Origin: an uncultured Lachnospiraceae bacterium
GTDB lineage: Bacteria > Bacillota > Clostridia > Lachnospirales > Lachnospiraceae
Reading direction: 5' to 3'
Assembly: GCA_944381575.1 (NCBI GenBank)
Contig: CALWLS010000013.1
Location: 1-43,241, forward strand
Length of the DNA stretch: 43,241 bases
The notes under the pieces are model-generated. The model ran no database searches. It was not told the DNA's origin and worked only from the letters and a program-made list of their open reading frames with translations. The position numbers and the translations under genes were made by a program. Of the stretch, positions 9,563-39,258 are shown one piece after another; within the stretch, counting starts at the first letter, position 1; every line of letters starts with the position of its first letter.

Positions 9563-9910
9563 GATGTTCTCCTTGTTAATAATTTGTTGCGGGATATGTG
9601 AGCATAATATCAGCGGTGATTTTTATTTATAATTTATTTGATTTATCATGAATGGCACAACATATAAAATATCTGATAGAATATGGAAATTCTTCTTATA
9701 TTTTGTAGTAGCGAGTTATGTGCTCGACAGAAATTATTTGATCTTAAGGTATATAACTCAATCTGACTTATATTGTGTATGATGAAAATCCGCAGTCTAT
9801 CCATCAGTATGTAGGTTGAGACAGAGAAAATCATTAGTTAGGATAAATACAGATATGTATAATGCGTGTGTATGGGCAGGAAATTTTGCGGTGGAAAGAT
9901 GGAGGAGCGC
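9563..9910. promoter_or_regulatory. Divergent control region between YfcC carrier and M20 hydrolase
   Basis: A 348-base AT-rich spacer without a gene. It contains TATAAT at 9858-9863 as a candidate -10 for the amidohydrolase and a TATTAT on the minus strand near 9607-9612 for the carrier. An inverted pair, GAGTTAT (9713-9719) and ATAACTC (9753-9759), is spaced 33 bases apart and is a candidate site for the nearby PucR protein. Nothing else is recognised. Confidence 0.4.
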
Positions 9911-11083: not shown

Positions 11084-11116
11084 AGAATCTTTTGATCTGT
11101 AACATAATATATAAAG

Positions 11117-11147
11117 GCCCCTTGTGTTTTATTCTGCCACAAGGGGC
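11117..11147 (-). terminator. Terminator between M20 hydrolase and PucR (serves pucR)
   Basis: A perfect 10-bp GC stem (11117-11126 with 11138-11147). Read leftwards it is followed by CTTTATATATTATG, a passable U-tract for the minus-strand PucR gene. Read rightwards the tract is weak, but the stem may also protect the 3' end of the M20 transcript. Confidence 0.7.
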
Positions 11148-11176
11148 GTTGCTATATCTGTATATAGATCATGATA

Positions 11177-17989: not shown

Positions 17990-17996
17990 TCGGGCC

Positions 17997-19166
17997 ATGA
18001 AAAACAGGAAGATTTTTTTATTAAATAATATAAGCGACGAAGGCTTAAAGGCCTTCAGGGACGGATATAATACCACGGGCAGCCTGGATGACGCCCACGG
18101 CGCTTTGGTCAGGAGCGCTGACATGAAGGCGATGAAATTCCCACCTTCATTAAGGGCCATTGCAAGGGCCGGCGTCGGGGTAAACAACATACCGCTTGAA
18201 AGATGTGCCGACGAGGGAATAGTGGTGCTCAATACTCCGGGAGCCAACGCCAACGCCGTTAAGGAGATGGTGATCGCCGGACTCATGCTTGCCTCAAGGG
18301 ATATAGTGGGCGGAATAGAATGGGTAAGGGCCAACGCCAACGACCCTGAGATCGAGGAGCACGCCGAAAAGGCCAAGAAGGCATTTTCAGGCTGCGAGGT
18401 GATCGGTAAAAAGATCGGCGTCATCGGCCTTGGAGCCATAGGAGTGCTGGTGGCCAATATCTGCGCCTATCTCGGCATGGAGGTCTACGGATATGATCCT
18501 TATATCTCCGTAGGCTCTGCCTGGAGGTTAAAGAGGGAGGTAAGGCACGAGGAGAGCATAGACGAGCTCTTTGAGCAGTGCGATTACCTTACTGTGCATG
18601 TTCCAGCGGTGGAATCCAACAGGGACATGATAAATAAGCTTTCCTTCGCCAAGATGAAGGACGGCGTAAGGATACTTAATTTCTCAAGGGGATTTATAAT
18701 CAACGAGGACGATATCACTGAAGCCTTAAAGAGCGGAAAGGTTGCAAAGTATGTAACGGATTTTGCAACGCCGAAGTCCGTACTTATGCCTAACACCGTA
18801 GTGACGCCGCATTTAGGGGCTTCGACGGAAGAGGCGGAGGAAAACTGCGCAAGGATGGCGGTGCAGGAAATACAGGACTATCTTGATAACGGAAATATAC
18901 ACCATTCTGTCAATTACCCTGATATAGATGCGGGGGTATGCAAGGTGGAGTCCAGGATAGCCTGCCTTCACAGGAACGCTCCCGGCATGCTGGGCAAGCT
19001 TACAGCCATAATGGGCGAGGCTGAGATAAATATTGCCAACATGCAGAATGCAAGCCGTGATAAGTACGCCTATACCCTCATGGATATAGATACGAGGATA
19101 ACGGACGAGGCCCTTGACAAGATCAGGGCCATAGAGGGGATGCTGAGAGTAAGGATAGTAAAATAA
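17997..19166 (+). CDS. serA: D-3-phosphoglycerate dehydrogenase
   Basis: A 389-residue NAD-dependent dehydrogenase: GVGVNNIP substrate loop (59-66), Rossmann motif GLGAIG (144-149), catalytic VVTPHLGAST-x-EAEENCA region, and a C-terminal ACT domain (about 315-389, beginning RIACLHRNAPGMLGKL). It catalyses the first step of serine synthesis; the ACT domain suggests control by serine. The ATG at 17997 lies 7 bases after the serC stop; the frame also opens at 17970, inside serC, which is rejected. The SD is weak, so coupling to serC is likely. Confidence 0.96.
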   Translation: MKNRKIFLLNNISDEGLKAFRDGYNTTGSLDDAHGALVRSADMKAMKFPPSLRAIARAGVGVNNIPLERCADEGIVVLNTPGANANAVKEMVIAGLMLASRDIVGGIEWVRANANDPEIEEHAEKAKKAFSGCEVIGKKIGVIGLGAIGVLVANICAYLGMEVYGYDPYISVGSAWRLKREVRHEESIDELFEQCDYLTVHVPAVESNRDMINKLSFAKMKDGVRILNFSRGFIINEDDITEALKSGKVAKYVTDFATPKSVLMPNTVVTPHLGASTEEAEENCARMAVQEIQDYLDNGNIHHSVNYPDIDAGVCKVESRIACLHRNAPGMLGKLTAIMGEAEINIANMQNASRDKYAYTLMDIDTRITDEALDKIRAIEGMLRVRIVK

Positions 19167-26235: not shown

Positions 26236-28059
26236 ATGTACAGAAAACAGATATCAAAAAATGTAATCAAATGCGCCGCAGCTGCGGCCTTCAGCCTGTT
26301 TTTCCCACTGACCGCACTGGCGGCAGATAAGGATATAGTTATACTTACCACCAATGACGTTCACTGCGGAGTGGACGATAATATAGGATATGCGGGACTT
26401 AAGCTCTATGAAAAGGAAGTGGAGGCAGAAACTCCATACGTGCTGTTAGCGGATGCCGGAGACGCCATACAGGGAGCTCCCATAGGGACCCTTTCTGAAG
26501 GAGAGTATCTTGTCGATATCATGAACGAGATGGGATACGATTTTGCCATACCGGGAAATCATGAATTTGATTACGGGATGGACAGATTCCTAAAGCTTTC
26601 CAAAGAGCTTGACTGCGCCTATACCTCCTGTAATTTTATTGATCTTAGGACGGGAGAGACCGTATTTGAGCCTTACAGGATGTTTACCTTTGACGATACG
26701 GATGTAGCTCTTATAGGGGTGACTACGCCTGAGACATTTACAAAATCCTCGCCTAAGTATTTTCAGGACGAGTCGGGTGAATACATATACGGCTTTTCCG
26801 AGGATGATACTGGAGAGGCGCTCTATGAGGCCGTACAGTCTGCGGCGGATGAGGCGAGGGCTGAGGGAGCCGAATATGTGATACTCGTGGGGCATCTCGG
26901 CAAGGCCGGCATAACTGAGAAATGGACCTCCGAGGCGGTGATAGCCGGTACCAGCAGCATTGACGCCATGATTGACGGCCACAGCCACGAGCAGTACGCA
27001 AAAGAGTTTAAAAATAAGGAAGGCAAGACCGTTCCGGTACTGCAGGCAGGAACAAAGCTCCAGGCCATCGGACGGCTTACCATAGGGACTGAAGGCTACA
27101 TCAGCACTGAGCTCATAGATAACGTGACCGGAGACGGAGTGGCGGAGAGCACCTATATCGTTAAAAAGGGAGACAGCCTGTGCCGCATTGCCGACAGGCT
27201 TTTCGGTTCGCAGGATTTCTGGAGCGACATATATAATGCCAATACGGATATAATAGAGGATCCGGATCTTATAATGCCGGACATGGAGCTCATACTTCCG
27301 GGAGGCACGGCGGTCAATGAGGCCGGAAAAAATGTTGATGAATATATGGATGCATATATAAGAGGTATAGAGGCAGAGTTTGATAAGGAACTTAAAACTG
27401 TCATAGGGCATACGGAGGTGGAACTTACTACTTTGGATCCGGATACTAAGGAACGCAGGGTGAGGAGCGGAGAGACCAACCTTGGAGATCTCTGCGCCGA
27501 TGCGGTAAGGATAAGGACCGGAGCCGACATAGGTCTTATGAACGGCGGAGGCATAAGGGCTGACATCGCAAAGGGGGATATAACCTATGACGACGCTTTA
27601 AGCGTGTTCCCTTATGGAAATATGATCTGCGTGGCCAGGGTCACGGGACAGCAGATACTGGACTGCCTTGAGATGGGAGTCAAAAACTATCCTGAGGAAA
27701 GCGGAGGCTTCCAGCAGGTATCTGGCATTACCTTTACGGTGGATACTGGCATAGAGAGCTCAGTGACCACTGACACCCAGCGTAATTTTACAGGAGTTTC
27801 AGGAAAATACAGGGTTCGCGATGTTATGGTTAGCGGCGAACCTCTCGATCCTGAAAAAACCTATACGCTGGCCTCGCATAACTACCTCTTAAAATCCGGA
27901 GGAGACGGCATGACCATGTTTGACGGAGCTGAGATCATCGGAGATGAGATATCAGCCGATGTGGACATGCTTGCCGCCTATATAAGGGAGGACCTTGGAG
28001 GTACCGTGGGAGCGGAGTATGCGGAGGCAAAGGGCCAGGGCAGGATAACGATAAAGTGA
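26236..28059 (+). CDS. Secreted 5'-nucleotidase/phosphoesterase with inserted LysM domain
   Basis: A 607-residue exported protein. A signal peptide (about 1-30, cleavage near LTALAA) is followed by a UshA-like metallophosphatase domain (VILTTNDVHCG 35-45, ADAGDAIQGAP, GNHEFDYG 107-114, VGHLG, IDGHSHEQ 247-253). A LysM domain follows at about 306-355 (STYIVKKGDSLCRIADRLFG...IMPDMELILP), and then the 5'-nucleotidase C-terminal domain (from about 366; NLGDLCADAVR, GLMNGGGIRADI, FPYGN). LysM binds peptidoglycan, so the enzyme is probably held in the wall while it dephosphorylates nucleotides outside the cell. GGAAGG precedes ATG 26236; a 6-bp hairpin (26181-26196) lies in the leader. The in-between LysM position is unusual. 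Confidence 0.92.
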   Translation: MYRKQISKNVIKCAAAAAFSLFFPLTALAADKDIVILTTNDVHCGVDDNIGYAGLKLYEKEVEAETPYVLLADAGDAIQGAPIGTLSEGEYLVDIMNEMGYDFAIPGNHEFDYGMDRFLKLSKELDCAYTSCNFIDLRTGETVFEPYRMFTFDDTDVALIGVTTPETFTKSSPKYFQDESGEYIYGFSEDDTGEALYEAVQSAADEARAEGAEYVILVGHLGKAGITEKWTSEAVIAGTSSIDAMIDGHSHEQYAKEFKNKEGKTVPVLQAGTKLQAIGRLTIGTEGYISTELIDNVTGDGVAESTYIVKKGDSLCRIADRLFGSQDFWSDIYNANTDIIEDPDLIMPDMELILPGGTAVNEAGKNVDEYMDAYIRGIEAEFDKELKTVIGHTEVELTTLDPDTKERRVRSGETNLGDLCADAVRIRTGADIGLMNGGGIRADIAKGDITYDDALSVFPYGNMICVARVTGQQILDCLEMGVKNYPEESGGFQQVSGITFTVDTGIESSVTTDTQRNFTGVSGKYRVRDVMVSGEPLDPEKTYTLASHNYLLKSGGDGMTMFDGAEIIGDEISADVDMLAAYIREDLGGTVGAEYAEAKGQGRITIK

Positions 28060-28125: not shown

Positions 28126-29127
28126 ATGGGATCAGATAAAGCTGTGATATACATGGAAACTGGTTCAAGGGATCCATATTACAATCTTGCCTTTGAGGAA
28201 TATGTACTGACCCACAGGACAAAGGGGGATCATCTTATCCTCTGGCAGAACAGCAATACCATAGTTATAGGCCGTAACCAGAACGCTGAATCTGAGATAA
28301 ACCGGGCATTTGTGGAAGCTCATGACGTAAAGGTCGTAAGGAGAGAAACGGGAGGCGGAGCAGTCTATCATGATCTCGGCAACCTGAATTATTCTTTTAT
28401 CACAGATGCAGGGGAGGCAGGAAAGCTTGATATACATAGGTTTACCCTGCCTGTCGTAAGGGTGCTTAAAGACCTTGGCTTAAATGCCGAGGCTTCAGGC
28501 AGAAACGATATCCTTGTAAACGGCAGTAAGGTCTCAGGTACGGCCCAGAGGCTTTACCATGGACGTATACTGCATCATGGCACTCTGCTCTTTGACTCGG
28601 ATCCTGACGCGGTAGCCGGCGCTTTAAATGCGGATCCGGCCAAGTTTCAGTCCAAAAGCTCAAAGTCGGTAAGGAGCAGGATAGGAAACATCCGGGATTT
28701 TTTGGAAAATGACATGGATATCCTGTCGTTCTGGGAGTATCTTAAGCAAAGCCTTGCAGAAAACGGCTTTGTAAAAGAGGGACTGACCGCTGATGAATTA
28801 AAAGAGGTCGATAACCTTATGAGGTCCAAGTATCAGACCTGGGAATGGAATTTTGGGAGGTCCCCTAAATTCAATGTCACTAATAAGAAACGTTATAATG
28901 CAGGAAGCATAGAATCAAGGATAGAAGTAAAAGAAGGGAAGATAACGGAGGCGGCTTTTTTCGGGGATTTCTTAAGCATAATCCCTATTAAGCCGCTTAC
29001 GGACGCCATGGCGGGACTTCCTTTCAGAAGAGGCGATATTGCTGACGTTTTAAAGCATTTCGATATTGAAGCCATGTTCGGCGGCATAACCAAAGAGGAG
29101 ATCCTTGATCTCATGTTCAATACCTGA
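28126..29127 (+). CDS. lplA: Lipoate-protein ligase
   Basis: A 333-residue cytosolic ligase of the LplA type: large domain with IVIGRNQNAESEIN, VVRRETGGGAVYHDLGNLNYSF, GRNDILVNGSKVSGTAQR and the lysine-containing loop after it, then a small C-terminal accessory domain (from about 250). It activates free lipoate with ATP and joins it to lipoyl-domain lysines. It converges on an operon that encodes two lipoyl-domain proteins (E2 and E3 of an oxo-acid dehydrogenase), its obvious clients. A GGCAGAT/ATCTGCC pair (28066-28072, 28098-28104) lies in its leader. ATG 28126, SD weak (GGAG). Confidence 0.94.
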   Translation: MGSDKAVIYMETGSRDPYYNLAFEEYVLTHRTKGDHLILWQNSNTIVIGRNQNAESEINRAFVEAHDVKVVRRETGGGAVYHDLGNLNYSFITDAGEAGKLDIHRFTLPVVRVLKDLGLNAEASGRNDILVNGSKVSGTAQRLYHGRILHHGTLLFDSDPDAVAGALNADPAKFQSKSSKSVRSRIGNIRDFLENDMDILSFWEYLKQSLAENGFVKEGLTADELKEVDNLMRSKYQTWEWNFGRSPKFNVTNKKRYNAGSIESRIEVKEGKITEAAFFGDFLSIIPIKPLTDAMAGLPFRRGDIADVLKHFDIEAMFGGITKEEILDLMFNT

Positions 29128-29210
29128 CAGCTTAAGTGCCGGGCAAAATATCAGCGCCGGACGAAACATTAGTACCGGAAAAACACTTGGCTCATTAAAT
29201 AAACTTAATA

Positions 29211-29250
29211 AAAACCTGCGCCGATCAGTTATGGTCACGGCGCAGGTTTT
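29211..29250. terminator. Bidirectional terminator between lplA and the dehydrogenase operon
   Basis: A perfect 13-bp stem whose outer part is AAAA/TTTT (29211-29223 with 29238-29250), loop of 14. The A/T ends supply a U-tract in both directions, as expected between two convergent units. Confidence 0.88.
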
Positions 29251-29290
29251 CTGTATGATTAGCAGTTTTTGATCTGTTGGATCGGCGGGA

Positions 29291-30169
29291 TTATTTTATT
29301 TCCACTCCCATGGAATTCTCATAGTATTTAGCCAGTGCGCACTGATCCTCGTCGATCATGCCGTGGTCGTACATCCAGTCCATCTGGTCCTTGACTACCT
29401 TTGTGGCAGGGATCTCTATGCCGAGATGCTCAGCCACGTCCATGGCGTTATTGATATCCTTTAAATGTACCGCTATACGGGCGCTGGCAGTGAAATCACG
29501 GCTTAAGAGCTTAGGCACCTTTACATCCATTACTGTGCTTTGGGCAAAGCCGTCCTTGATGGCGTTGAAAAGTGTTTCAGGATCAAGGCCAGCCTTTGTG
29601 GCGAATGCAAATGCTTCTCCCATTGCGATAAGGTGAATGCCGACCATCATGTTGTTGGCTACCTTTGCAGTGCTGCCGCAGCCTGACTTGCCCATGTAGG
29701 TCACTGTCTTTCCCATCATTTCAAGGTAAGGCTTTACCTCGTCAAATACTTCTTTTTCACCGCCGCACATAATAACGAGGGTTCCGCCGTTGGCACCTAT
29801 CTCCCCTCCGCTTACAGGTGAGTCAAGCAGATTGAAGCCCTTTTCAACGGCTGTGGCGTGAAGCTCCTGTATTACATAAGGGGAGGTGGAGCCCATGTCC
29901 ACGATGGTGGTTCCAGGCTTTGCAATCTCCATTATCTCGGTGATGGTCTGCTTTACGATAGCATTCGTAGGCAGGCACATAAAGATTATGTCGCAGGTCT
30001 CATAGAGCTCTTTTCCGCTCTCAAGGGCCTTTCCTCCGCGGGCTGCAAAACGCTCGCGGAGCGCAGGAACAGGATCATAGCCGTAAACGGTGGTGCCGCT
30101 TTTGTCTATGAGATTTGAAGTCATTCCGTAGCCCATGATCCCGAGTCCGAGATATCCGATTTTTTTCAT
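29291..30169 (-). CDS. Beta-hydroxyacid dehydrogenase (GarR / 3-hydroxyisobutyrate dehydrogenase family)
   Basis: A 292-residue NAD(P)-dependent dehydrogenase. It has the family's IGYLGLGIMGYGMTSNLI Rossmann start, DSPVSGGEIGANGGTL (about 118-133) and the catalytic lysine motif GSTAKVANNM (about 168-177), then an all-helical C-terminal domain. Relatives oxidise or reduce tartronate semialdehyde/glycerate, 3-hydroxyisobutyrate or other 3-hydroxy acids. It is the last gene of the operon, 39 bases after E3. AGGAGG stands before the ATG. In this setting I infer oxidation of a 3-hydroxy acid imported by the GntP-type permease; specificity cannot be read. Confidence 0.88.
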   Translation of the reverse strand: MKKIGYLGLGIMGYGMTSNLIDKSGTTVYGYDPVPALRERFAARGGKALESGKELYETCDIIFMCLPTNAIVKQTITEIMEIAKPGTTIVDMGSTSPYVIQELHATAVEKGFNLLDSPVSGGEIGANGGTLVIMCGGEKEVFDEVKPYLEMMGKTVTYMGKSGCGSTAKVANNMMVGIHLIAMGEAFAFATKAGLDPETLFNAIKDGFAQSTVMDVKVPKLLSRDFTASARIAVHLKDINNAMDVAEHLGIEIPATKVVKDQMDWMYDHGMIDEDQCALAKYYENSMGVEIK

Positions 30170-30208
30170 ATGATTATGCCTCCTGATGAGTCTTAAATTT
30201 CAAACAGA

Positions 30209-31963
30209 TTATTTCTTTTTCTTAGGCGGGATGTGTACGGGACGGCCGAGAGCGTCCAAAGCACATTCGCGCATGGCTTCAGTAACCGTAGGATGGGAGT
30301 GTATGGTTGCTACAAGCTCGTCTAATGTGAGCTCCTGGCCGATGGCTAAGGCGCCCTCACATATAAGGTCGGTAGCCCTTGGGCCTATAATGTGCATACC
30401 GAGCACTTCTCCATATTCACTTCCGGCTATGATCTTTACAAGGCCTTCGCCGCCGTTAAGGATAAGGGCCTTACCGTTTGCGCTCATTGGGAATTTTCCT
30501 ACCTTGTAGTCTATTCCCTTTTCTTTGCACTGTTCCTCGGTAAGTCCAACTGAAGCGGCCTCAGGCTCGATATATACGCAGGTCGGATTCGTCGCCTCAT
30601 CGTAGGCGGCGTCCATACCGCAGATATTTTCCGCTGCGACTTCTCCCATTGCGCTTGCTGTGTGGGCAAGCTGCGCGTATCCAAGGACACAGTCGCCTAT
30701 GGCATAGACTCCAGGAATGTTGGTTTCCATGTGATCATTTACCTTTATGCGTCCCCTGTCATTGTCGATGCCTGCTGCATCAAGGTTTAAGGAGGCGGTA
30801 TTAGGTCTGCGGCCTATGGCAACGAGGACTTTTTCGGCTTCAAAGCTTACTTCGTTTCCATTTTTATCCTTACATATCACCTTTGCTCCTACGGGGCTCT
30901 TTTCTATGGCCTGTACCGGGCACTCAAGATTAAAATCCATGCCCATCTGCTTCATATGGGCCACGCCTATTTTAGTGAGGTCCCCGTCAAGCATTGGGAG
31001 CATGTGATCAAGAGCCTCCACTACGGTGATCTTTGTACCGAAACCGGCATAGGCGCATGCAAGCTCAAGACCTATCACGCCTCCGCCTATGACCACCATG
31101 GATGCCGGGAGCTTTTCCAAAGAAAGAGCTCCGGTGGAATCTATGCAGTTCTCATTTTCGGCAAGACCAGGGATAGGAGGTTTTGCATTTACTGAACCCG
31201 TTGCGATTATAACGGCGTCCGGAGTCATGCTTTCGGAGCTTCCGTCAGACTTTTTGATCATTACGCTCTTAGGACCCGTAAAGCTTGCCTCGCCATCTAT
31301 CACCTTTACCCTGTTTGCCTTAAGCAGTGCGGCAACGCCGGAGGTGAGCTGGTGGCTGACTGCATTTTTATGGGCTATTACCTGAGGGAAGTTGACGGTG
31401 ACACCCTCAGCCTCGACTCCGATATCGCGGCCCTGTTCCTTTATCTGGGATACAAGCTCTGAGCTGTGGAGCAGGCATTTGGTAGGTATGCATCCTATAT
31501 TGAGGCATGTTCCTCCAAGATACTGCTTTTCTGCTAAAGTTACCTCTGCCCCAAGCTGAGCGGCCCTGATGGCGGCGACATATCCGCCCGGGCCTCCGCC
31601 TATGATAAGGATTTTCTTAGGAGCGGAAGGCCCGGCTGTTTTATCACTGACTGATGCCGTACCCGCAGAAGGAGAAGCCTTGGATACAGGAGCGCTGTTT
31701 CCTGCAGTTCCTGAGATCGTTTCACCGGGCTGGCCTATATAGCCGAGGATACCCTTTACCGGCACGTCGCTTCCTTCTTTTGCCACTATCTTTATCAAGA
31801 CTCCGTCCGTTTCAGCCTCCACCTCGTTTGTGAGCTTATCGGTGGTTATTTCGAGGATGGGTTCTCCGGCCTTGACGGCGTCGCCCTCTGACTTAAGCCA
31901 GCGCTCTACGGTGCCTTCCTCCATGGTAAGTCCCAGCTGGGGCATTTTTATTTCAGTAGCCAT
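30209..31963 (-). CDS. Dihydrolipoyl dehydrogenase (E3) with N-terminal lipoyl domain
   Basis: A 584-residue protein. Residues 1-81 are a lipoyl domain with the acceptor lysine K43 (EITTDKLTNEVEAE). A Ser/Ala/Pro-rich linker (about 85-115) leads to the flavoprotein: FAD motif ILIIGGGPGGYVAA, redox disulfide GGTCLNIGCIPTK, NAD-binding VVIGGGVIGLE, and active histidine in HSHPTVTEA. It reoxidises dihydrolipoyl groups with NAD. E3 enzymes with a fused lipoyl domain occur in acetoin dehydrogenase systems such as that of Clostridium magnum. The lipoyl domain is nearly identical to that of the neighbouring E2. GGAGG precedes ATG; 16 bases after E2. Confidence 0.95.
   Translation of the reverse strand: MATEIKMPQLGLTMEEGTVERWLKSEGDAVKAGEPILEITTDKLTNEVEAETDGVLIKIVAKEGSDVPVKGILGYIGQPGETISGTAGNSAPVSKASPSAGTASVSDKTAGPSAPKKILIIGGGPGGYVAAIRAAQLGAEVTLAEKQYLGGTCLNIGCIPTKCLLHSSELVSQIKEQGRDIGVEAEGVTVNFPQVIAHKNAVSHQLTSGVAALLKANRVKVIDGEASFTGPKSVMIKKSDGSSESMTPDAVIIATGSVNAKPPIPGLAENENCIDSTGALSLEKLPASMVVIGGGVIGLELACAYAGFGTKITVVEALDHMLPMLDGDLTKIGVAHMKQMGMDFNLECPVQAIEKSPVGAKVICKDKNGNEVSFEAEKVLVAIGRRPNTASLNLDAAGIDNDRGRIKVNDHMETNIPGVYAIGDCVLGYAQLAHTASAMGEVAAENICGMDAAYDEATNPTCVYIEPEAASVGLTEEQCKEKGIDYKVGKFPMSANGKALILNGGEGLVKIIAGSEYGEVLGMHIIGPRATDLICEGALAIGQELTLDELVATIHSHPTVTEAMRECALDALGRPVHIPPKKKK
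31721..31963 (-). repeat. Duplicated lipoyl-domain coding segment, copy in E3
   Basis: Encodes 81 residues, of which 75 equal the E2 copy at 33006-33248. DNA differences are mostly at third codon positions. Same orientation, about 1.3 kb apart. Confidence 0.9.
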
Positions 31964-31979
31964 TTATTTTAGTTCCTCC

Positions 31980-33248
31980 TTAAAGCAGGATATCCATAGG
32001 ATTTTCTAACAGATCCCGGATCGTCATTTCAAATTTGGCTGCTACGGCCCCGTCCACAAGGCGATGGTCAAATGTCAGGGAGATCCTCATCACCTGATGC
32101 TTGGTTATCGTGCCGTCGTCCTCCATGACAAGCTCGTCCTCGGTACAGCAGACGCCAAGAATGGCGGCGTCAGGCTGGTTGATGATAGGAGAGAAGCTTT
32201 CTACCCCAAACATTCCCAGATTTGATACGGTAAATGTGGAGCCCTTATATTCGTCGGAGCCAAGCTGGTTGGAACGGGCCCTGTTGGCCAGATCCTTGGC
32301 TTTTGCCGAAAGCGCCTCAAGTCCTAAGGTGTCAGCGTCGCGTATGACAGGAACTATAAGTCCCGCATCCAGGGCGACAGCCATTCCAAGGTTGACATGG
32401 GCACGGTGTATTATTGTTTCTCCGTCAAGGCTTACAAGCATTTCCGGATGCTTTCTCAAGGCCTTTGCGACAGCCTTAAGTATCCAGTCGTTAACGGCGA
32501 AATGCCTTCCTTCTTCCTTAAGCTTCTGGCGCAGTGCCATAAGTTTCGTGACGTCTGCCTTGACTGTCTGTGTAACGGCAGGGATCTCTACGGCGGATGT
32601 ATACATACGCTGTGCTACGACCTTGCGCATGCCGCTGAGTTTTTCAGTAGTGTCGCCGTCCATGAGCTCAAGATTCTTTACAGGGAACATTGAACCTGAT
32701 GCCTGAGCCTTAGGCGCAACTTCGGATGAAGGAGCCTTAGGGGCCTCCTTAACTGCCGCTGCTGGTGCGCTCTCAGCCGCAAGGATATCTCTTTTTATTA
32801 TGCGTCCGCCGGGGCCGGTACCTTTGAGTACTGTATAATCAATACCCTTCTGCATTGCTATTTTACGGGCAAGAGGCGAAATGCGTACCTTTTTACCGGT
32901 TTCTGTTACGGCCGGCGTGATAACGGAAGCTTCAGGCTTAGGAGCTTCTGCAGCCGGAGCAGCTGCCGGAACTTTAACTTCTGAAGCGCCTGCAGCGTCG
33001 ATATTTTCTCCGGGCTGTCCTATATATCCTAAGATACCCTGTACAGGGACGTCGGAACCTTCATCTGCCACGATCTTAAGCAGTACGCCGTCAGTTTCAG
33101 CTTCAACTTCGTTGGTGAGCTTATCGGTGGTGATCTCTAATATTGGCTCTCCGGCTTTGATCTCGTCACCTACTGACTTGAGCCAGCGTTCAACGGTCCC
33201 CTCTTCCATGGTAAGCCCCAGCTGGGGCATCTTGATTTCAGTTGCCAT
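31980..33248 (-). CDS. 2-oxo acid / acetoin dehydrogenase acyltransferase (E2)
   Basis: A 422-residue lipoyl acyltransferase: lipoyl domain 1-81 with K43, an Ala/Pro-rich linker, a peripheral-subunit binding domain (about 118-155, RISPLARKIAMQKGIDYTVL), another linker, and a catalytic core ending with the TFDHRLVDGA motif (catalytic His and Asp). It takes an acyl group from E1 and passes it to CoA. It sits between E1 beta (12 bases upstream) and E3 (16 bases downstream). The single lipoyl domain and the E3 with its own lipoyl domain fit acetoin-type complexes. AGGAGG before ATG. Confidence 0.95.
   Translation of the reverse strand: MATEIKMPQLGLTMEEGTVERWLKSVGDEIKAGEPILEITTDKLTNEVEAETDGVLLKIVADEGSDVPVQGILGYIGQPGENIDAAGASEVKVPAAAPAAEAPKPEASVITPAVTETGKKVRISPLARKIAMQKGIDYTVLKGTGPGGRIIKRDILAAESAPAAAVKEAPKAPSSEVAPKAQASGSMFPVKNLELMDGDTTEKLSGMRKVVAQRMYTSAVEIPAVTQTVKADVTKLMALRQKLKEEGRHFAVNDWILKAVAKALRKHPEMLVSLDGETIIHRAHVNLGMAVALDAGLIVPVIRDADTLGLEALSAKAKDLANRARSNQLGSDEYKGSTFTVSNLGMFGVESFSPIINQPDAAILGVCCTEDELVMEDDGTITKHQVMRISLTFDHRLVDGAVAAKFEMTIRDLLENPMDILL
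33006..33248 (-). repeat. Duplicated lipoyl-domain coding segment, copy in E2
   Basis: Partner of 31721-31963. The six amino-acid differences in 81 are at residues 26, 29, 30, 57, 62 and 70; the surrounding linkers and later domains are unrelated. Confidence 0.9.
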
Positions 33249-33260
33249 CCTTGGACCTCC

Positions 33261-34238
33261 TTATTTTGCAAGCAGCCTGTGTGCGGCGGCCACTATGTCT
33301 TCAGGGTGCGGGAACATGGCATCCTCAAGAGGCGGTGAGAAAGGTGATACCACATTTGCTGCGGCAACACGGGCCACCGGAGCATCCAGGTCATCGAAGA
33401 GCTCTTCCTGAATCTCAGCAGCTATTTCTGCTCCGATGCCTCCACGGCGCGCGCCCTCCTCGACTACCATAACGTTGCCTGTTTTCTGAACTGACGCCCT
33501 GATGGCCTCCCAGTCAAGAGGAACGAGGCTGCGCAAGTCTATGACCTCAGCGTCGATACCCTGTGCGGAAAGCGTCTCGGCTGCTTCCAGTGAGAAGTAT
33601 ACCTGACGTGACCATGTGATTATGGTAAGATCCTTACCCGGACGCTTTATATCAGCCTTTCCCAAAGGTATAAGATACTCTCCGTCAGGGATATCTTCCT
33701 TTTTAGCATATAAGAGCTTATGCTCAAGGAAAACTACAGGATCGTCGGATCTTATGGCTGATTTTAAGAGCCCCTTGGCGTCTGCCGCAGTTGAAGGGCA
33801 TACTACCTTAAGTCCAGGTATATGTGTGAACAATGCCTCAAGGCACTGTGAATGCTGGCCGGCATTGCGGCGTCCTGCGCCTATAGGAGCCCTGAATACG
33901 ATAGGCACCTTCACCTGCCCGCCGGTCATGTAGCGCATCTTTGCAGCCTGATTCATGACAGGATCCAGGCATACGCCGATAAAATCGTCGTACATCCACT
34001 CAACTACCGGACGCAGGCCTCTCATGGCCATACCTACGGCCATGCCTGTAAAGCCTGATTCACTTATAGGCGTATCTATCACCCTGAGCGGACCAAATTC
34101 ATCAAGGAATCCCTGAGTGATGGCAAAAACATTGCCCATCACTGCCATATCCTCGCCAAGGACGATGACATTTTCATCCCTGACCATCTCTTCATGCAGA
34201 CCCTCACGGATCGCTTTACTAACACTCAGTGTACTCAT
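33261..34238 (-). CDS. Acetoin / 2-oxo acid dehydrogenase E1 beta subunit
   Basis: A 325-residue transketolase-like subunit: LSVSKAIREGLHEEM, VIVLGEDMAVMGNVFAITQGF (TPP-facing Glu), IDTPISESGFTGMAVGMAMRGLRPVVE, GRRNAGQHSQCLEAL and a C-terminal domain with VMVVEEGARRGG. It pairs with E1 alpha to bind TPP and transfer an acyl or hydroxyalkyl unit to lipoate. The start at 34238 is chosen because it overlaps the E1 alpha stop as ATGA (34235-34238); the frame also opens at 34250 without reason to start there. AcoB-like in length and motifs. Confidence 0.93.
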   Translation of the reverse strand: MSTLSVSKAIREGLHEEMVRDENVIVLGEDMAVMGNVFAITQGFLDEFGPLRVIDTPISESGFTGMAVGMAMRGLRPVVEWMYDDFIGVCLDPVMNQAAKMRYMTGGQVKVPIVFRAPIGAGRRNAGQHSQCLEALFTHIPGLKVVCPSTAADAKGLLKSAIRSDDPVVFLEHKLLYAKKEDIPDGEYLIPLGKADIKRPGKDLTIITWSRQVYFSLEAAETLSAQGIDAEVIDLRSLVPLDWEAIRASVQKTGNVMVVEEGARRGGIGAEIAAEIQEELFDDLDAPVARVAAANVVSPFSPPLEDAMFPHPEDIVAAAHRLLAK

Positions 34239-35224
34239 CTTGCCACACACTCCTCGTTATCTTCGCAATATACGTCTGTGAACGCCTCGCTGACATCAGG
34301 GTAAGGCGAACTGTCGGCAAACTCATAGGCAGCTTCTATTTCATCGGCCTTTTCCTTATATACGGCGTCAAGTTCAGCCTCAGTAGCCAGACCCTCCTTT
34401 AAAAGCTTTGTCCTGAAATTAAGTATAGGGTCATTTTTATGAGCTTCCTCAAGATAACTCTTAGGACGGTAGACTGCAGGATCTCCGCAGTAGTGGCCCT
34501 GCCAGCGGTAAACGACATTTTCAACCAGATAAGGACCCTTGCCTGATCTTGCGTATTCAACGGCTTCCTTTACGGCTTCATATACTTCAAGTACGTCGCT
34601 GCCGTCCACCGTCACGCCCGGTATGTCGTAGGCCTTGGCGCGTACGGCGATATCCTCGGTGTTTGTCACGCGGTGGATCTCCGTTGAAACTCCGTAATGG
34701 TTGTTCTCGCAGAGATATACTACCGGGAGCTTCCATGCTGCCGCCATGTTGATGGATTCATGGAATGTGCCCTGGTTTGAGGCGCCGTCTCCGAAGAAGC
34801 AGAGGGTGACCTCATCGGTGCCCTTGATCTTGGAGGCAAGCGCTGAACCGGTAGCTATCGGGATCCCGGCGCCGACTATGCCGTTAGCGCCCAGAATACC
34901 TAAGGATACATCCGCAGCGTGCATTGAGCCGCCCTTGCCCTTGCAGTAACCGGTGGATTTGCCGAAGAGCTCTGCCATCATTTTTTTGCTGTCAGCGCCC
35001 TTGCCAAGCAGATGTCCATGTCCGCGGTGAGTTGATGTGATGTAATCGGTAGGCCTAAGCGCAGCGTTGGATCCGACTACGCTGGCCTCCTGTCCGATGC
35101 ACAGATGTATGTTTCCTGCCAGCATGCCTTTTGTAAAGCAGTCGGCGGCTTTTTCCTCAAAAAGGCGTACACGGACCATGCCGCCGTAGAGCTGCAGAAG
35201 AAAATCTTTTTCGTAAGTTGCCAC
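34235..35224 (-). CDS. Acetoin / 2-oxo acid dehydrogenase E1 alpha subunit
   Basis: A 329-residue TPP-dependent subunit. It shows NIHLCIGQEAS, STHRGHGHLLGKG, the KGGSMHAADVSLGILGANG stretch, and the TPP/Mg motif GDGASNQG...CENN (145-175). The short form (about 325 residues) and these motifs are closest to AcoA of acetoin dehydrogenases and to related acyloin or oxo-acid enzymes. The start is GTG at 35224, behind AAGGAAAGG. It overlaps E1 beta by 4 bases. It is the first enzyme gene after the permease, 18 bases downstream. Substrate by homology is acetoin or another acyloin or 2-oxo acid; not fixed by sequence. Confidence 0.93.
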   Translation of the reverse strand: MATYEKDFLLQLYGGMVRVRLFEEKAADCFTKGMLAGNIHLCIGQEASVVGSNAALRPTDYITSTHRGHGHLLGKGADSKKMMAELFGKSTGYCKGKGGSMHAADVSLGILGANGIVGAGIPIATGSALASKIKGTDEVTLCFFGDGASNQGTFHESINMAAAWKLPVVYLCENNHYGVSTEIHRVTNTEDIAVRAKAYDIPGVTVDGSDVLEVYEAVKEAVEYARSGKGPYLVENVVYRWQGHYCGDPAVYRPKSYLEEAHKNDPILNFRTKLLKEGLATEAELDAVYKEKADEIEAAYEFADSSPYPDVSEAFTDVYCEDNEECVAR

Positions 35225-35242
35225 GATTTACACGACCTTTCC

Positions 35243-36559
35243 TTAGTGAACTATTGAATAATAGATTAATGCAGGTATCAGTGAAAGCAGCGGAAGGATG
35301 ACTGTTTCAACAGCCACGTGCTTATATCCCTTTTTGTAGGATACGCCTGAAAGGGCGAAAAGCATAACTACGGTACCGTTCCATGGAAGAGTATCAAGTC
35401 CGCCGCAGGCAATGGAAGCCACTCGATGGATTATATCAGGAGTGAAGCCCCATGATACGAAGGTCTCTCCGAAAAGATTGAGGGCGATCGTAAGTCCGCC
35501 TGAAGCAGAGCCTGTGATACCGGCGATAATGGTGGTTATTGAAGCTACCTTTACAAGTCCCGGAAGCGGAAGGTTGATGATATTCTGCTGAAGGAGCGCG
35601 AAGGCGTCCGTCTTGGAAACGACCTGTCCTACGCCGACTACCGATGCGATTATGATACAAGGGAAGATACCGCTGTTGAATCCTTCGGAAAGGATATCCT
35701 TGAGCGCCTTCATGCCGCCGAGGGCGCTGTTGAATAATATAAGTGATAATACGCATCCGATGGCAAGTCCGTAAAGGAGCTCTATGCCGATTCCGTTGAT
35801 AAGAACGAAGGTAACTACTAAAGGAAGTAATGAAATAATGAAGTTTGGAGCTCTTCCCTCAAGCTCCTCCTCATCAAGGACGCCGCCGTGGACATTATAT
35901 AACTCTATTGATGCCTCAGGGTCGTTCTTGCCCTTTGCCGCCTGCCAGTAGAGATATCCAACTCCGAATACGAGCATGAAAAGCGTTGCAAGCACGCCTT
36001 CTACCGGTGCGGCAGTAAGTGATGTGCCGAGTATCTGGGTAGGGATGATGTTCTGCATCTGAAGGCTGCCAGGCATCTGGCCCATTGCGAATGTAGCGAT
36101 GGCAAGTCCCGTTATGCCAGGGAAAAGATACCAAGGTATGCCGGCCTTAGGGAACAGGATCTTTGCAAATGGAAGGAGGACAAAGATCATTACGGTAACC
36201 TGTATTCCTCCGTAAACTAAAAGGCCGCCTACAAGCACATAGATCAGAAGCGTCCATTTTGCACCTGCTTTATTTATAAGAGTGCTGCTTATGCGCCATG
36301 TAGCTCCGCTCCTGTCATAGAGACCTCCGAGCAGGGCGCCGAGAGCAAAGATAATGAGCCAGCTGCCTACGAAGTTCTTCATACCTACAAGATAAGAACC
36401 TTCGGAGCCGACAAGCTCGGCAGCGATATTCATACCGCCGAACAAAGCTACGATAGCTGCGGCTATGACTGAAGCTAAGAACATGCTGAGTTTTCGGTAT
36501 GCCGCGACGATCAATACTCCGAATGCCAGGAGTATGCCGATTACATTTAAGATAATCAT
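35243..36559 (-). CDS. GntP-family permease
   Basis: A 438-residue membrane protein with about 12 hydrophobic segments, starting MIILNVIGILLAFGVLIVAAYR. GntP-type features are FALGALLGGLYDRSGA, the GQMPGSLQMQNIIPTQ loop and a late GSASGGLTIALNL followed by CGGLDTLPWNGTVV. Family members take up gluconate and other hydroxy acids by proton symport. A hydrophilic loop near residues 208-233 is cytosolic. First gene of the leftward operon and divergent from a LysR regulator, so it is the likely entry step for the operon's substrate. AAAGGA before ATG. Confidence 0.88.
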   Translation of the reverse strand: MIILNVIGILLAFGVLIVAAYRKLSMFLASVIAAAIVALFGGMNIAAELVGSEGSYLVGMKNFVGSWLIIFALGALLGGLYDRSGATWRISSTLINKAGAKWTLLIYVLVGGLLVYGGIQVTVMIFVLLPFAKILFPKAGIPWYLFPGITGLAIATFAMGQMPGSLQMQNIIPTQILGTSLTAAPVEGVLATLFMLVFGVGYLYWQAAKGKNDPEASIELYNVHGGVLDEEELEGRAPNFIISLLPLVVTFVLINGIGIELLYGLAIGCVLSLILFNSALGGMKALKDILSEGFNSGIFPCIIIASVVGVGQVVSKTDAFALLQQNIINLPLPGLVKVASITTIIAGITGSASGGLTIALNLFGETFVSWGFTPDIIHRVASIACGGLDTLPWNGTVVMLFALSGVSYKKGYKHVAVETVILPLLSLIPALIYYSIVH

Positions 36560-36656
36560 TTGCGTATATCCTTTCTTGTTTCGTTATATGCACACCTTAT
36601 GGCCGGGCCCTTTGCCAAAAATACTTTGTGTGCAAACTTATTATTGAAGTTATTAT

Positions 36657-36674
36657 ATTTTGACTAATCAAAAT
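36657..36674. promoter_or_regulatory. Palindromic operator candidate between the operon and LysR gene
   Basis: ATTTTGA (36657-36663) and TCAAAAT (36668-36674) form a perfect inverted repeat around CTAA. It lies in the divergent spacer 36560-36804, 98 bases upstream of the permease start, a fitting place for a LysR activator site. A smaller palindrome, ATGATTATCAT, lies at 36709-36719. Confidence 0.5.
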
Positions 36675-36804
36675 GTAAAAATTTTATTTTTTTATTGAAA
36701 AATAACCAATGATTATCATATTTATGTAAAATAAATTTGATTTTCCGGTTTGCCTGCCGTAAAATTTTTGTTATACTTATATAATTTTTATGGAGCGAAG
36801 GATT

Positions 36805-37716
36805 ATGCTGGATCTGAAACGCATGTGGTATCTTGAGGCGGTCTACCGCTGCAAAAACTTTACAAAGGCAAGTGAAATGCTCCATGTATCGCAGCCGGCC
36901 ATATCAAATGCGATAAATGCACTGGAGTCGGAACTTAATATCAAGCTTATGGTCAGGAATTCCAAGAACGTCACCTTTACCTATGAAGGCGAGCAGATCA
37001 TGGAGAGAGTCACGAAAATACTTGACCTGTGCAATGAAACGGAGATAATGATCAAGGACCTGTCCACATCGGCCTCCAAGAGGCTCAGGTTCGGTATCTC
37101 TTACGCCATGACAAGGCAGATCATGCCTGCCGTCTTTTCAAAATTCATGGAGATCCACCCGGGCCTTCAGATAAGCTGGGACGAGGGATCTATGTATAAG
37201 CATGTGGACATGGTGAGGGAAAAACGCCTGGACATGGCCTACAATGCCCTTCCAAAGGGCGAGGCAGCTGAGGGCTTAAGGCTGATACCGGTCAGTGTCG
37301 CAGAGATATACGTGGTGCTTCATCCGGACAGTCCGCTGGCGCAGATGGACAGGATACCGCTGCAGGCTCTGTCAAATGAACTGCTGGTCATGATGGATAA
37401 GCAGTCGAGAGTATGCGAGCTTATGGACGCGGAGTTTAAAAAGCAGGGCATAGATCCGCGCATAGTATTTAATTACAGCCAGATAGCGTGCATGTCGGAC
37501 ATGGTAAGGACCAGCGGGTATATCGGCATTTTAAGCGTGGCCAACGGAGAGGAGGCTATAGGCTGCGACGGGCTTATACTCAGGCCGCTGTGGGTGCCGC
37601 TGACATTTGACATGGGATTTATATTGAGAGAGGGAGATTATCTCCCGAAGATAGGAAGGGAACTTATACAGTTCATACTTAAGACCGTCAAGTCAGATCT
37701 GAGTGAGATAGTATAA
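36805..37716 (+). CDS. LysR-family transcriptional regulator
   Basis: A 303-residue regulator with the N-terminal winged helix (MLDLKRMWYLEAVYRCKNFTKASEM, VSQPAISNAINALESEL) and a periplasmic-binding-like ligand domain from about residue 90. The ATG at 36805 has GGAGCGAAGG before it; the in-frame ATG at 36790 lies before the SD. It is divergent from the GntP/dehydrogenase operon with operator-like palindromes between them, so control of that operon by an intermediate is the simplest reading. The inducer is unknown. Confidence 0.92.
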   Translation: MLDLKRMWYLEAVYRCKNFTKASEMLHVSQPAISNAINALESELNIKLMVRNSKNVTFTYEGEQIMERVTKILDLCNETEIMIKDLSTSASKRLRFGISYAMTRQIMPAVFSKFMEIHPGLQISWDEGSMYKHVDMVREKRLDMAYNALPKGEAAEGLRLIPVSVAEIYVVLHPDSPLAQMDRIPLQALSNELLVMMDKQSRVCELMDAEFKKQGIDPRIVFNYSQIACMSDMVRTSGYIGILSVANGEEAIGCDGLILRPLWVPLTFDMGFILREGDYLPKIGRELIQFILKTVKSDLSEIV

Positions 37717-37721
37717 CTAAA

Positions 37722-37787
37722 TGTTATCCATGTATAACAAAGACAGACATTGTTATTAAATAGACAAAAATGTTATTATTTTAACAT
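37722..37787 (+). promoter_or_regulatory. Promoter and TGTTA/TAACA operator cluster of the MBL-TetR genes
   Basis: TGTTAT-N6-ATAACA (37722-37739) and ATGTTA-N6-TAACAT (37770-37787) are perfect inverted repeats, and a single TGTTAT lies between them (37751-37756). A promoter TTGTTA (37750-37755), spacer 18, TATTAT (37774-37779) is covered by the second repeat, which suggests repression by a protein binding these sites, most simply the downstream TetR. Confidence 0.6.
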
Positions 37788-37827
37788 ATAGTTTTAGGAG
37801 TTTTGCACATACTTTTTAGGAATTTGT

Positions 37828-38586
37828 ATGGATGAAACCATTCAGGTGACTTTAGCCGCCAACGCCGGCGTACTGCTGTCATATAAGGGTAGAAAACTGC
37901 TCATCGACGGACTTTTTCATGCTGAAAATGTGCCCTACAGCAATCTGCCGGAGGCGTCGCTTAAGGCCATATATGAAAATAAACCTCCCTATGACGGGAT
38001 AGACTATCTTATATTTACCCACAGGCATCCGGATCATTTTTCCCGCAGGATGGTGAAGGAGTATCTGGAGCGAAACAAAGTCAGGGGAGTGCTGCTTCCT
38101 CCTTCGGATCGGCCGGAGCTTACTGAATTTCAAAAGCTTCTTCATTCCATGGGGGTCAGGTGCATGGCCATACCTGTTTCGGGCAGTTCAGTTATTACGC
38201 CGGAGCCGGACATAAGCCTAAAAACCATTCCCACAAAACATCTGGACCGGAGGTTTTATGATGTTCCCCATGCTTCCATACTTATAAAGCTTGGGGAAAA
38301 GAATGTACTTTTTACGGGAGACGCGGATTATACGACCGAGACGTTTGGGGATATGCCGCCTCTTCACGCCGTATTCTTAAATCCCTTATTTTTTCATGCG
38401 TATATGAGCGGCAGGTTTTTTAAGGGCGGCTTTAAGACCGGGGCAGTATGCGTGTACCATGTTCCGTTTCCGGAGGATGATGTATTTCATATACGGGCTT
38501 CCATTGCAAAGGATATGGAAAAATATCATGACAGGGCTGCGGATGTATATGTGCTTGACAGCCCGGACCAGCAGATAATACTATAA
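37828..38586 (+). CDS. MBL-fold metallo-hydrolase
   Basis: A 252-residue metallo-beta-lactamase-fold protein with the metal motif H65-x-H67-x-D69-H70 (THRHPDH), a further HAS near 150, and FTGDADYTTET (metal-bridging Asp). It is compact, with no extra domain or signal peptide, so cytosolic. It resembles the UlaG/RomA-like branch loosely but I cannot assign a substrate. It is the first gene of a pair with TetR (51 bases apart) and its promoter carries the TGTTA/TAACA repeats also found before the ABC genes. It may modify or hydrolyse the compound that the ABC pair moves; that is inference. Confidence 0.85.
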   Translation: MDETIQVTLAANAGVLLSYKGRKLLIDGLFHAENVPYSNLPEASLKAIYENKPPYDGIDYLIFTHRHPDHFSRRMVKEYLERNKVRGVLLPPSDRPELTEFQKLLHSMGVRCMAIPVSGSSVITPEPDISLKTIPTKHLDRRFYDVPHASILIKLGEKNVLFTGDADYTTETFGDMPPLHAVFLNPLFFHAYMSGRFFKGGFKTGAVCVYHVPFPEDDVFHIRASIAKDMEKYHDRAADVYVLDSPDQQIIL

Positions 38587-38637
38587 ATTGGCTTTATAAA
38601 TGAAATTGAATTTTGAACATAGCTTTGGAGCGATCAT

Positions 38638-39258
38638 TTGAAAACAGGAAATTCCACAACATTATACCGTATACATGAGGCGGCTAAGGCCGAGTTTATG
38701 GAAAAGGGCTATGAAAAGGCCTCCCTGCGTAACATTGTGAGATCGCTGGGCATGACTACGGGCGCATTTTACGGATATTATAAAAGTAAAGAGGAGCTTT
38801 TTGAGGCTATAGTCGGAGAGCACTACGATTATTTTTTGAATATATTTAAGGAGGCACAGGAGGATTTTGCCGCATTGCCTTATAATGAGCAGCCTGAAGT
38901 TATGGGACAGTTCTCCGGAAGATGCATGTACGAAATGCTGTATTATTCTTACGGGCATCTTGAGGAATTCAAGCTTATACTTAATCGTTCCGAAGGCACA
39001 CGGTTTTCCGGACTCATAGAAGAGATGGTACGCATAGAAGAGGAAGGAACCGACAGATATATAAGTGTTCTTAAAGAGCTTGGCAGACCTGTGCCTGATA
39101 TAGATAAAAGACTTGAACATATACTTATAACGGGCATGTTCAGTACATTTTTAGAGCTTATCGTCCATGAGATGCCGCTTGAGGAAGCCGAGGTATATCT
39201 CAAGCAGATGAGGGCGTTCTATACTGCAGGCTGGATGAAGATAATGGGGCAGCAGTAA
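38638..39258 (+). CDS. TetR/AcrR-family regulator
   Basis: A 206-residue regulator: N-terminal helix-turn-helix (RIHEAAKAEFMEKGYEKASL, NIVRSLGMTTGAFYGYYKSKEELF, about 8-56) and a helical ligand domain. The start is TTG at 38638, supported by GGAG (38627-38630) 7 bases before it and by the fold beginning there. It lies between the MBL-fold gene and the ABC pair, all on one strand, with palindromes in both spacers, so it is the likely repressor of both. Ligand unknown, probably the substrate of the transporter. Confidence 0.92.
   Translation: MKTGNSTTLYRIHEAAKAEFMEKGYEKASLRNIVRSLGMTTGAFYGYYKSKEELFEAIVGEHYDYFLNIFKEAQEDFAALPYNEQPEVMGQFSGRCMYEMLYYSYGHLEEFKLILNRSEGTRFSGLIEEMVRIEEEGTDRYISVLKELGRPVPDIDKRLEHILITGMFSTFLELIVHEMPLEEAEVYLKQMRAFYTAGWMKIMGQQ

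Follow-up and report, generated by a model that had tools for sequence, protein, structure and literature searches.

The acetoin dehydrogenase-like operon

The system described here lies in the genome of an uncultured Lachnospiraceae bacterium (assembly GCA_944381575.1, contig CALWLS010000013.1), in a stretch of 43,241 nucleotides hereafter called the window. It is an operon that combines the components of an acetoin dehydrogenase-like complex with an acid permease and a β-hydroxyacid dehydrogenase. Its six open reading frames (ORFs), all complete and on the minus strand, span 36559 to 29291, and no gap between them exceeds 39 bases. The gene order, observed directly, is 5' to 3': a permease of 438 amino acids distantly related to the GntP/ion-transporters (35243..36559); the E1 α subunit, 329 amino acids (34235..35224); the E1 β subunit, also 329 amino acids (33261..34250); an E2 of 422 amino acids (31980..33248) with a lipoyl domain (PF00364), an E3-binding domain (PF02817) and a 2-oxoacid dehydrogenase acyltransferase domain (PF00198); an E3 of 584 amino acids (30209..31963), which is a dihydrolipoyl dehydrogenase (TIGR01350) with an N-terminal lipoyl domain (PF00364); and a β-hydroxyacid dehydrogenase of the HIBADH family, 292 amino acids (29291..30169). 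The E1 α and E1 β ORFs overlap by 16 bases and the remaining gaps are of 18, 12, 16 and 39 bases. Pfam and NCBIfam profiles confirmed the families of these proteins.

A preliminary description of this DNA had read the region as a leftward six-gene operon under a LysR gene, and all the ORFs are indeed in place, with the LysR gene divergent at 36790. Its description of the complex as acetoin dehydrogenase-like also holds: E1 α, E1 β, E2 and E3 occur in one operon, as in acetoin operons, and E1 α has a His66 as in acetoin E1s. It was likewise right that the operon departs from the classic acetoin type: no 2,3-butanediol dehydrogenase/acetoin reductase is present among the genes scanned around it (28126-39258), and the E1 subunits form a separate clade with different pocket residues.

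A distinct E1 clade with its own putative active-site residues

The E1 α search yielded 88 relatives, the best 80 of which were kept. Together with the window, 17 loci (L024-L039 and a replicon of Vescimonas fastidiosa, L109) have E1 subunits that form a clade of their own, with Shimodaira-Hasegawa-like approximate likelihood ratio test (SH-aLRT) support of 99 for E1 α and 100 for E1 β, in quick trees with this one kind of support and several long branches. A nineteenth row of these trees, L143, is a duplicate of L026 and does not enter the residue and neighborhood counts. Among E1s of known structure, the closest in sequence are those of pyruvate and 2-oxoisovalerate dehydrogenases. The window E1 α narrowly misses the pyruvate dehydrogenase (PDH) E1 α model TIGR03182 (380.8 bits against a cut-off of 393.85), and E1 β passes the PDH E1 β model NF006667 (410.9 against 321), which is a subfamily model and not an equivalog.

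For comparison with acetoin E1s we turned to annotated plasmids, since the AcoC family NF011457, sought in 56 genomes, had no match even in the 14 controls. The yardsticks are the E1s of three plasmid operons annotated with a 2,3-butanediol dehydrogenase (L144, L146, L147), from Acinetobacter schindleri, Paracoccus pantotrophus and Enterococcus faecium; all three fall outside the 18-locus E1 β clade in the quick, long-branched tree. Residues were counted over the 18 clade rows, the rows of the sister group (23 for E1 α, 22 for E1 β) and, with the sister included, 71 and 66 non-clade rows in all.

In E1 α the residues N38, H66 and V179 align with Phe61, Tyr89 and Met200 of human PDH (chain numbers less 4), which are named as catalytic-site residues in PMC6168537. 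N38 and V179 are found in every one of the 18 clade members, against Leu38 and Ile179 in the 23 sister rows; the three acetoin yardsticks have Phe38, Glu179 and His66. H66 does not vary in an alignment that includes two non-clade E1s, and it marks a wider group rather than the clade. The E1 β loop reads G-[A/S]-G-R-R-N-A-G-Q-H-S in all 18 clade loci, in the window GAGRRNAGQHS, with the clade-specific stretch GRRNAGQH at residues 126-133. The final His of this stretch is presumably the catalytic one, consistent with the alignment to 3duf. Apart from the duplicate L143, no E1 β row aligned from outside the clade contains GRRNAGQH: the 22 sister rows have GR[S/A]SAAQHS, and the yardsticks have GAGFSAAAQHS, GAGFRAAAQHS and GAGASAAAQHS. 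The acetoin-E1 pocket as defined by these three yardsticks (α Phe38 and Glu179; β GAGxxAAAQHS) is thus not matched by the window E1. The marks of the β loop confined to the clade are the R127-R128 pair together and G131. The Arg pair and the polar residue in place of a hydrophobic one in E1 α would point to a negatively charged substrate with a hydroxylated acyl part. A scan of viral contigs with E1 β gave ten pattern stretches, none of them a relative.

Recurring gene neighborhoods of the clade

The clade loci come from five phyla, namely Bacillota, Planctomycetota, Elusimicrobiota, Pseudomonadota (Orbaceae) and Actinomycetota (a Propionibacterium metagenome-assembled genome, or MAG), and many are MAGs. 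Among 397 genomes sampled from the family to which the window belongs, E1 β was found at E <= 1e-120 in its own genome only. Such a patchy distribution is as horizontal transfer would give.

Neighboring genes were counted over the 18 clade loci and 64 other loci. A dehydrogenase of at least 45% identity to that of the window, a threshold chosen after seeing the data, is found in 9 of the 18 and in none of the 64; at 25% identity or more the counts are 10/18 and 5/64, the five being a distant subgroup. Several contigs (L024, L028, L033, L035, L036, L039) are truncated or short, and the count of nine may therefore be low: the dehydrogenase of L024, for instance, sits next to an E3 fragment on a different contig (L142) and is not counted. 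The one counted for L026 is a second, Vescimonas-like paralog, and the genes of the Natronincola locus L136 are not part of these counts. A PCC-domain protein occurs in 7/18 clade loci, and homologs of the metallo-β-lactamase-fold (MBL-fold) neighbor in four, the window included, with neither in the other 64. The same absence from the other loci holds for LysR regulators of at least 40% identity (4/18) and FCD regulators (4/18). Tdh-like medium-chain dehydrogenases/reductases (MDRs; at least 35% identity) are found in 5/18 against 2/64, and short-chain dehydrogenases/reductases (SDRs; at least 35%) in 2/18 against 4/64. Among the transporters the counts are 9/18 against 6/64 for receptors of tripartite ATP-independent periplasmic (TRAP) systems, 3/18 against 1/64 for GntP-like permeases and 2/18 against 0/64 for the major facilitator superfamily (MFS). 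LplA (3/18 against 9/64) and AcoR-like regulators (6/18 against 23/64) complete the set. By these counts the proteins special to the clade are the dehydrogenase and those of the PCC and MBL types; LplA, SDR and AcoR are not special to it. Whole-genome searches found the dehydrogenase at E <= 1e-40 in 13 of the 17 clade genomes or records.

The most complete sets are: FCD-DctPQM-HIBADH-MBL-PCC-E1ab-E2-E3-LplA in Vescimonas; MDR-PCC-HIBADH-DctPQM-E1ab-E2 in Planctomycetaceae (L029, L032); and AcoR-E1ab-E2-E3-SDR-HIBADH-LipB-SDR-Tdh-DctPQM-PCC in Natronincola, with LipB assigned by eye. Because the set recurs in other genomes, the operon is more than a chance grouping. The hydroxy-acid theme of the preliminary description is upheld as well, by clade transporters of carboxylate-carrying types and a dehydrogenase in a clade of its own.

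The oxidoreductases found beside clade E1s (HIBADH, Tdh-like MDR and FabG-like SDR) are from families in which some enzymes oxidize a hydroxyl β to a carboxyl or thioester. The MDR of L037 passes the L-threonine 3-dehydrogenase model NF003808 (399.1 against 380) and misses TIGR00692 (414.2 against 458.35), and the SDR of the same locus passes a FabG subfamily model (250.7 against 222) as well as one for glucose 1-dehydrogenase; the MDR is thus likely to act in β-oxidation, and the SDR may do so. These enzymes parallel the butanediol dehydrogenases of acetoin clusters, which in Pelobacter include both MDR and SDR types, according to PMC3543383. TRAP, MFS and GntP transporters are of different types, all suited to acids. 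One MFS transporter of the clade loci is nearest to the galactonate family (280.7 bits, under the cut-off of 395). The best PDB relatives of the TRAP receptors are 4pdd, 4p8b, 4p47 and 4nq8 for L032 and 4p47, 4p8b and 7bbr for L039; ligands such as erythronate, acetolactate and pantoate have reportedly been found for entries of this kind, to which we gave no weight.

Some related loci have other arrangements. In Natronincola (L136, 1-8976) a second set, AcoR-E1ab-DctPQM-E2-E3, follows the first; its E1 is not a member of the clade. Related E1 complexes on Rhizobium and Priestia plasmids (L110, L111, L112) adjoin sugar ATP-binding cassette or glucitol-type phosphotransferase system genes and sugar-binding transcriptional regulators, and apparently represent another sugar-linked branch of acetoin-like E1s. 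On a Shinella plasmid (L145) E1ab, E2 and E3 are clustered with transaldolase-family, TIM-barrel, triose-phosphate isomerase and class II aldolase genes.

The β-hydroxyacid dehydrogenase

The dehydrogenase has both Pfam domains of the HIBADH family (PF03446, 150.3 bits; PF14833, 113.6 bits). By alignment its S120-G121-G122, K169 and N173 are intact conserved superfamily residues, as listed for β-hydroxyacid dehydrogenases in PMC8900737. Its best NCBIfam models are those of tartronate semialdehyde reductase (GarR), both of which it misses (NF008592, 273.9 against 397; TIGR01505, 261.7 against 340.75); it also misses the L-threonate dehydrogenase (LtnD) model NF043037 (168.7 against 350). Asp32, which we take to end the second strand, suggests a preference for NAD over NADP. 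The enzyme forms a clade of 12 rows (SH-aLRT 100), one of which, L121, is not beside an E1; this clade is separate from L124 and L128, enzymes of operons that by eye are glucarate-like and that have Gln in place of N173. GarR and LtnD share with it the superfamily, the Ser-Gly-Gly motif, the Lys and the N-terminal NAD domain; its scores fall below the curated cut-offs of both, and we rejected a plain GarR identity on the score and the separate clade.

6-Phosphogluconate dehydrogenase (6PGDH) belongs to the same superfamily, and its oxidation of a 2,3-dihydroxy acid at C3 is the chemistry proposed here. Unlike it, the window enzyme has no residue like Glu190 or His186: V176 and N172 occupy these places, as judged by the spacing from the catalytic Lys, with no 6PGDH sequence in the alignment. 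Decarboxylation by the dehydrogenase itself was rejected on the lack of a Glu190 equivalent. An Oscillibacter MAG (L025) has two clade dehydrogenases around one E1 operon (82-975 and 9613-10497): one is of the window type; the other, which adjoins an FCD regulator, is of the Vescimonas type.

Transport, regulation and flanking genes

The permease reaches the GntP family PF02447 (41.4 bits against a gathering score of 22.5), which bears out its earlier assignment to the GntP type in so far as it is a distant relative; the gluconate:H+ symporter model TIGR00791 is far out of reach (48.8 against 292.75). Homologs with 87 and 84% identity hold the same position in L024 and L025. The LysR regulator (36790..37716, plus strand) is divergent from the operon, as are its homologs in L024, L025 and L026 (70, 54 and 54% identity). 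Upstream of the permease a sigma-70-like site on the minus strand, TTTACA-16-TATAAT (36652..36679), matches the consensus at 11/12 bases; it is a consensus match and weak evidence for a promoter, because 21 such sites occur in 9.65 kb, against 12.0 (standard deviation 4.2) in shuffles. Beyond the regulator lies the MBL-fold hydrolase (37828..38586, plus strand), which has no PDB sequence match at E 0.01 and the single-sequence fold of which had a mean predicted local distance difference test score of 51.1 and was not used further.

A lipoate-protein ligase, LplA (28126..29127, plus strand; TIGR00545, 395.7 bits against 280), is convergent with the 3' end of the operon, and the same layout of HIBADH and LplA is seen in one relative, L142. 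Elsewhere in the window we noted, by eye, a UshA/5'-nucleotidase-like secreted protein with an apparent LysM segment between its two domains (26236-28059), and a group of a YfcC/AbgT-like permease, an amidohydrolase-type peptidase and a PucR-like regulator (8150-12760), perhaps for uptake of acyl-amino acids or peptides.

Lipoylation and the genomic background

The E3 passes TIGR01350 at 532.8 bits (cut-off 408.8), and its lipoyl domain is identical to that of E2 at 74/80 amino acids and 192/240 nucleotides, which suggests copying or conversion between the two neighboring genes. The source assembly is of 2.0 Mb and 97.4% complete. It has a full-length pyruvate:ferredoxin oxidoreductase (PFOR; 1710.6 bits against 911.35), and no glycine-cleavage H protein (GcvH) was matched in it; on these two grounds the E1-E2-E3 complex is probably a dedicated one. 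The genome has five matches to biotin/lipoyl domains, two of them in the operon; the other three fall in ORFs of 195, 1157 and 413 amino acids, presumably coding for biotin carriers or proteins of that kind. Hence LplA probably lipoylates the E2 and E3 of the operon. A second E1 α/β pair of the genome (contig C6, 21931-23900; L108, 7964-10904) has 43% identity in E1 α; it adjoins a gene that by eye is secA-like and an MBL-fold gene, with no adjacent E2 or E3.

Relationship to acetoin and pyruvate dehydrogenases

The AcoABCL system shares with the window operon the order E1 α-E1 β-E2 with an E3, the His66 and the presence of lipoate genes nearby, and with some clade loci the AcoR-like activator and the MDR/SDR dehydrogenases. 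It differs in that the window operon has an acid permease, a β-hydroxyacid dehydrogenase and LysR control, that the window E1 lies in a separate clade with N38 and V179 in the α and GRRNAGQH in the β subunit, and that no butanediol dehydrogenase or AcoX is seen beside the operon. PDHs with an α2β2 E1 have the fold, domain set and cofactors in common with the window complex, and E1 β passes their subfamily model; however, the PDH E1 α models are not reached, and the window has Asn, Val and His at the positions of human α Phe61, Met200 and Tyr89. A PDH serving central metabolism was rejected, as PFOR is present in the genome. The parts are of known families; what is new is their combination with a separate E1 clade, residues diagnostic of it and partners that recur. 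Among the entries listed by searches of an open-access library there was no description of this gene set or of activity on a carboxylated acyloin, which is weak evidence as subscription journals are mostly outside this coverage.

Proposed direct cleavage of a carboxylated acyloin and the alternatives

We favor, at a probability of slightly over one in three, the interpretation that the operon codes for a carboxylate-adapted relative of acetoin dehydrogenase, which would cleave a 2-hydroxy-3-oxo acid directly to an acyl-CoA and glyoxylate. In this scheme, in which the direction of each step, the products and the persistence of the carboxylate are inferred, the permease would import a monocarboxylic acid that is short and dihydroxylated or polyhydroxylated; the dehydrogenase would oxidize its C3 hydroxyl, giving a 2-hydroxy-3-oxo acid that is already an acyloin with a carboxylate; the E1, with thiamine pyrophosphate (TPP), would attack the C3 carbonyl and cut directly between C2 and C3; the resulting acyl group, which could be acetyl but is more probably hydroxylated (glycoloyl, for example), would pass to the lipoyl-E2 and then to CoA, with glyoxylate leaving; and E3 would make NADH, with E2 and E3 lipoylated by the local LplA. 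In favor of this are the His66 of E1 α, as in the three acetoin-operon E1s and against Tyr89 in human PDH, and the Arg pair of the E1 β loop, which would suit a carboxylate substrate and suggests that the carboxylate may still be present when E1 acts. Also in favor are N38 and V179 at positions of the catalytic site, the families of the clade oxidoreductases, the acid-type transporters of the clade loci and the probable dedication of the complex.

The preliminary description had placed a decarboxylation between the two steps: oxidation at C3, loss of CO2 to give an acyloin, and cleavage of the latter to an acyl-CoA and an aldehyde. A precedent exists within the superfamily, as 6PGDH couples C3 oxidation with decarboxylation (PMC8900737); moreover β-keto acids may lose CO2 spontaneously, a 2-methyl-2,3-dihydroxy acid would yield acetoin, and R128 is found in one acetoin-operon E1, so that the Arg pair does not prove that the substrate is an acid. 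However, the set has no decarboxylase gene, Val176 stands at the spacing of 6PGDH Glu190, and the E1 pocket differs from that of acetoin E1s. By chemical reasoning, too, the acyloin formed from an acid that bears H at C2 would be R-CO-CH2OH, and its cleavage would release formaldehyde. Because of the Arg pair and this formaldehyde, direct cleavage is preferred, and the route by way of decarboxylation appears quite improbable; the earlier interpretation is thus supported in part, without this step. A serious rival, though an unlikely one, is that the dehydrogenase oxidizes C2 and the complex oxidatively decarboxylates a polar 2-oxo acid to an acyl-CoA. L-threonate dehydrogenase is a member of the superfamily that oxidizes C2, the nearest solved E1s act on pyruvate and 2-oxoisovalerate, and N38 with the Arg pair would fit a hydroxylated or dicarboxylic 2-oxo acid; against this stand the score far under the cut-off of the L-threonate dehydrogenase model, the acetoin-type H66, and the Tdh-like and FabG-like partners of the clade, which suggest β-oxidation.

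It is decidedly unlikely that the dehydrogenase works reductively, on glyoxylate or tartronate semialdehyde and with the NADH of E3, while E1 cleaves a keto-hydroxy acid imported or made elsewhere. Such a role would agree with its best models being tartronate semialdehyde reductases, with the NADH sink that fermenters need, and with a second oxidoreductase, MDR or SDR, available for the oxidation in L028, L029, L030, L032, and L031 with L136; yet both reductase models are well below their cut-offs, the clade is separate from the glucarate-like enzymes L124 and L128, and the window operon has no second oxidoreductase. That the complex is an ordinary acetoin or pyruvate dehydrogenase and its neighbor is there by chance is very improbable: E1 α falls just under the cut-off of TIGR03182, E1 β passes NF006667, and E2 and E3 are unremarkable, but the genome has PFOR, the operon is without a butanediol dehydrogenase, the E1 clade is separate with different pocket residues, and the HIBADH link is found again in several phyla.

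Several observations weigh against direct cleavage of a carboxylated acyloin. R127 alone also occurs in the sister group (22/22 rows) and some other rows, R128 alone in the Paracoccus acetoin E1 (one of the three yardsticks) and N129 in 8/66 non-clade rows; these occurrences of single Arg residues make the case for a carboxylate thinner than the invariance of the loop suggests. The Arg pair is placed near the active site by alignment, and the pocket changes would fit a polar 2-oxo acid just as well. Four of the 17 clade genomes or records (L034, L036, L037, L038) are without the dehydrogenase at E <= 1e-40, and the L037 SDR also passes a glucose 1-dehydrogenase subfamily model (248 against 215). 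The proposed route assigns no role to the PCC-domain and MBL-fold proteins, and the genome of the window has no PCC-domain protein. It also has a single full-length member of the dehydrogenase family, and none set aside for glyoxylate; the other match to this family is a short stretch in a gene that by eye is SerA-like (17970-19166).

Implications

A wider proposal, which we hold as doubtful, builds on the direct cleavage of carboxylated acyloins: the clade may represent an undescribed kinase-free route in which aldonic or deoxyaldonic acids are oxidized at C3 unphosphorylated and cut by the lipoate-linked E1 as an oxidative acyloin-acid lyase, the genes having spread between phyla by horizontal transfer. 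Along with glyoxylate, a tetronate, for instance, would then yield glycoloyl-CoA and a 4-deoxytetronate acetyl-CoA. For the finding of further members, the GRRNAGQH of E1 β offers a simple sequence mark. If the proposed cleavage is correct, there would be a branch of the 2-oxo acid/acetoin dehydrogenase superfamily specialized for carboxylate-bearing acyloins, by which gut and environmental bacteria would make acyl-CoA from sugar acids without a kinase or aldolase.

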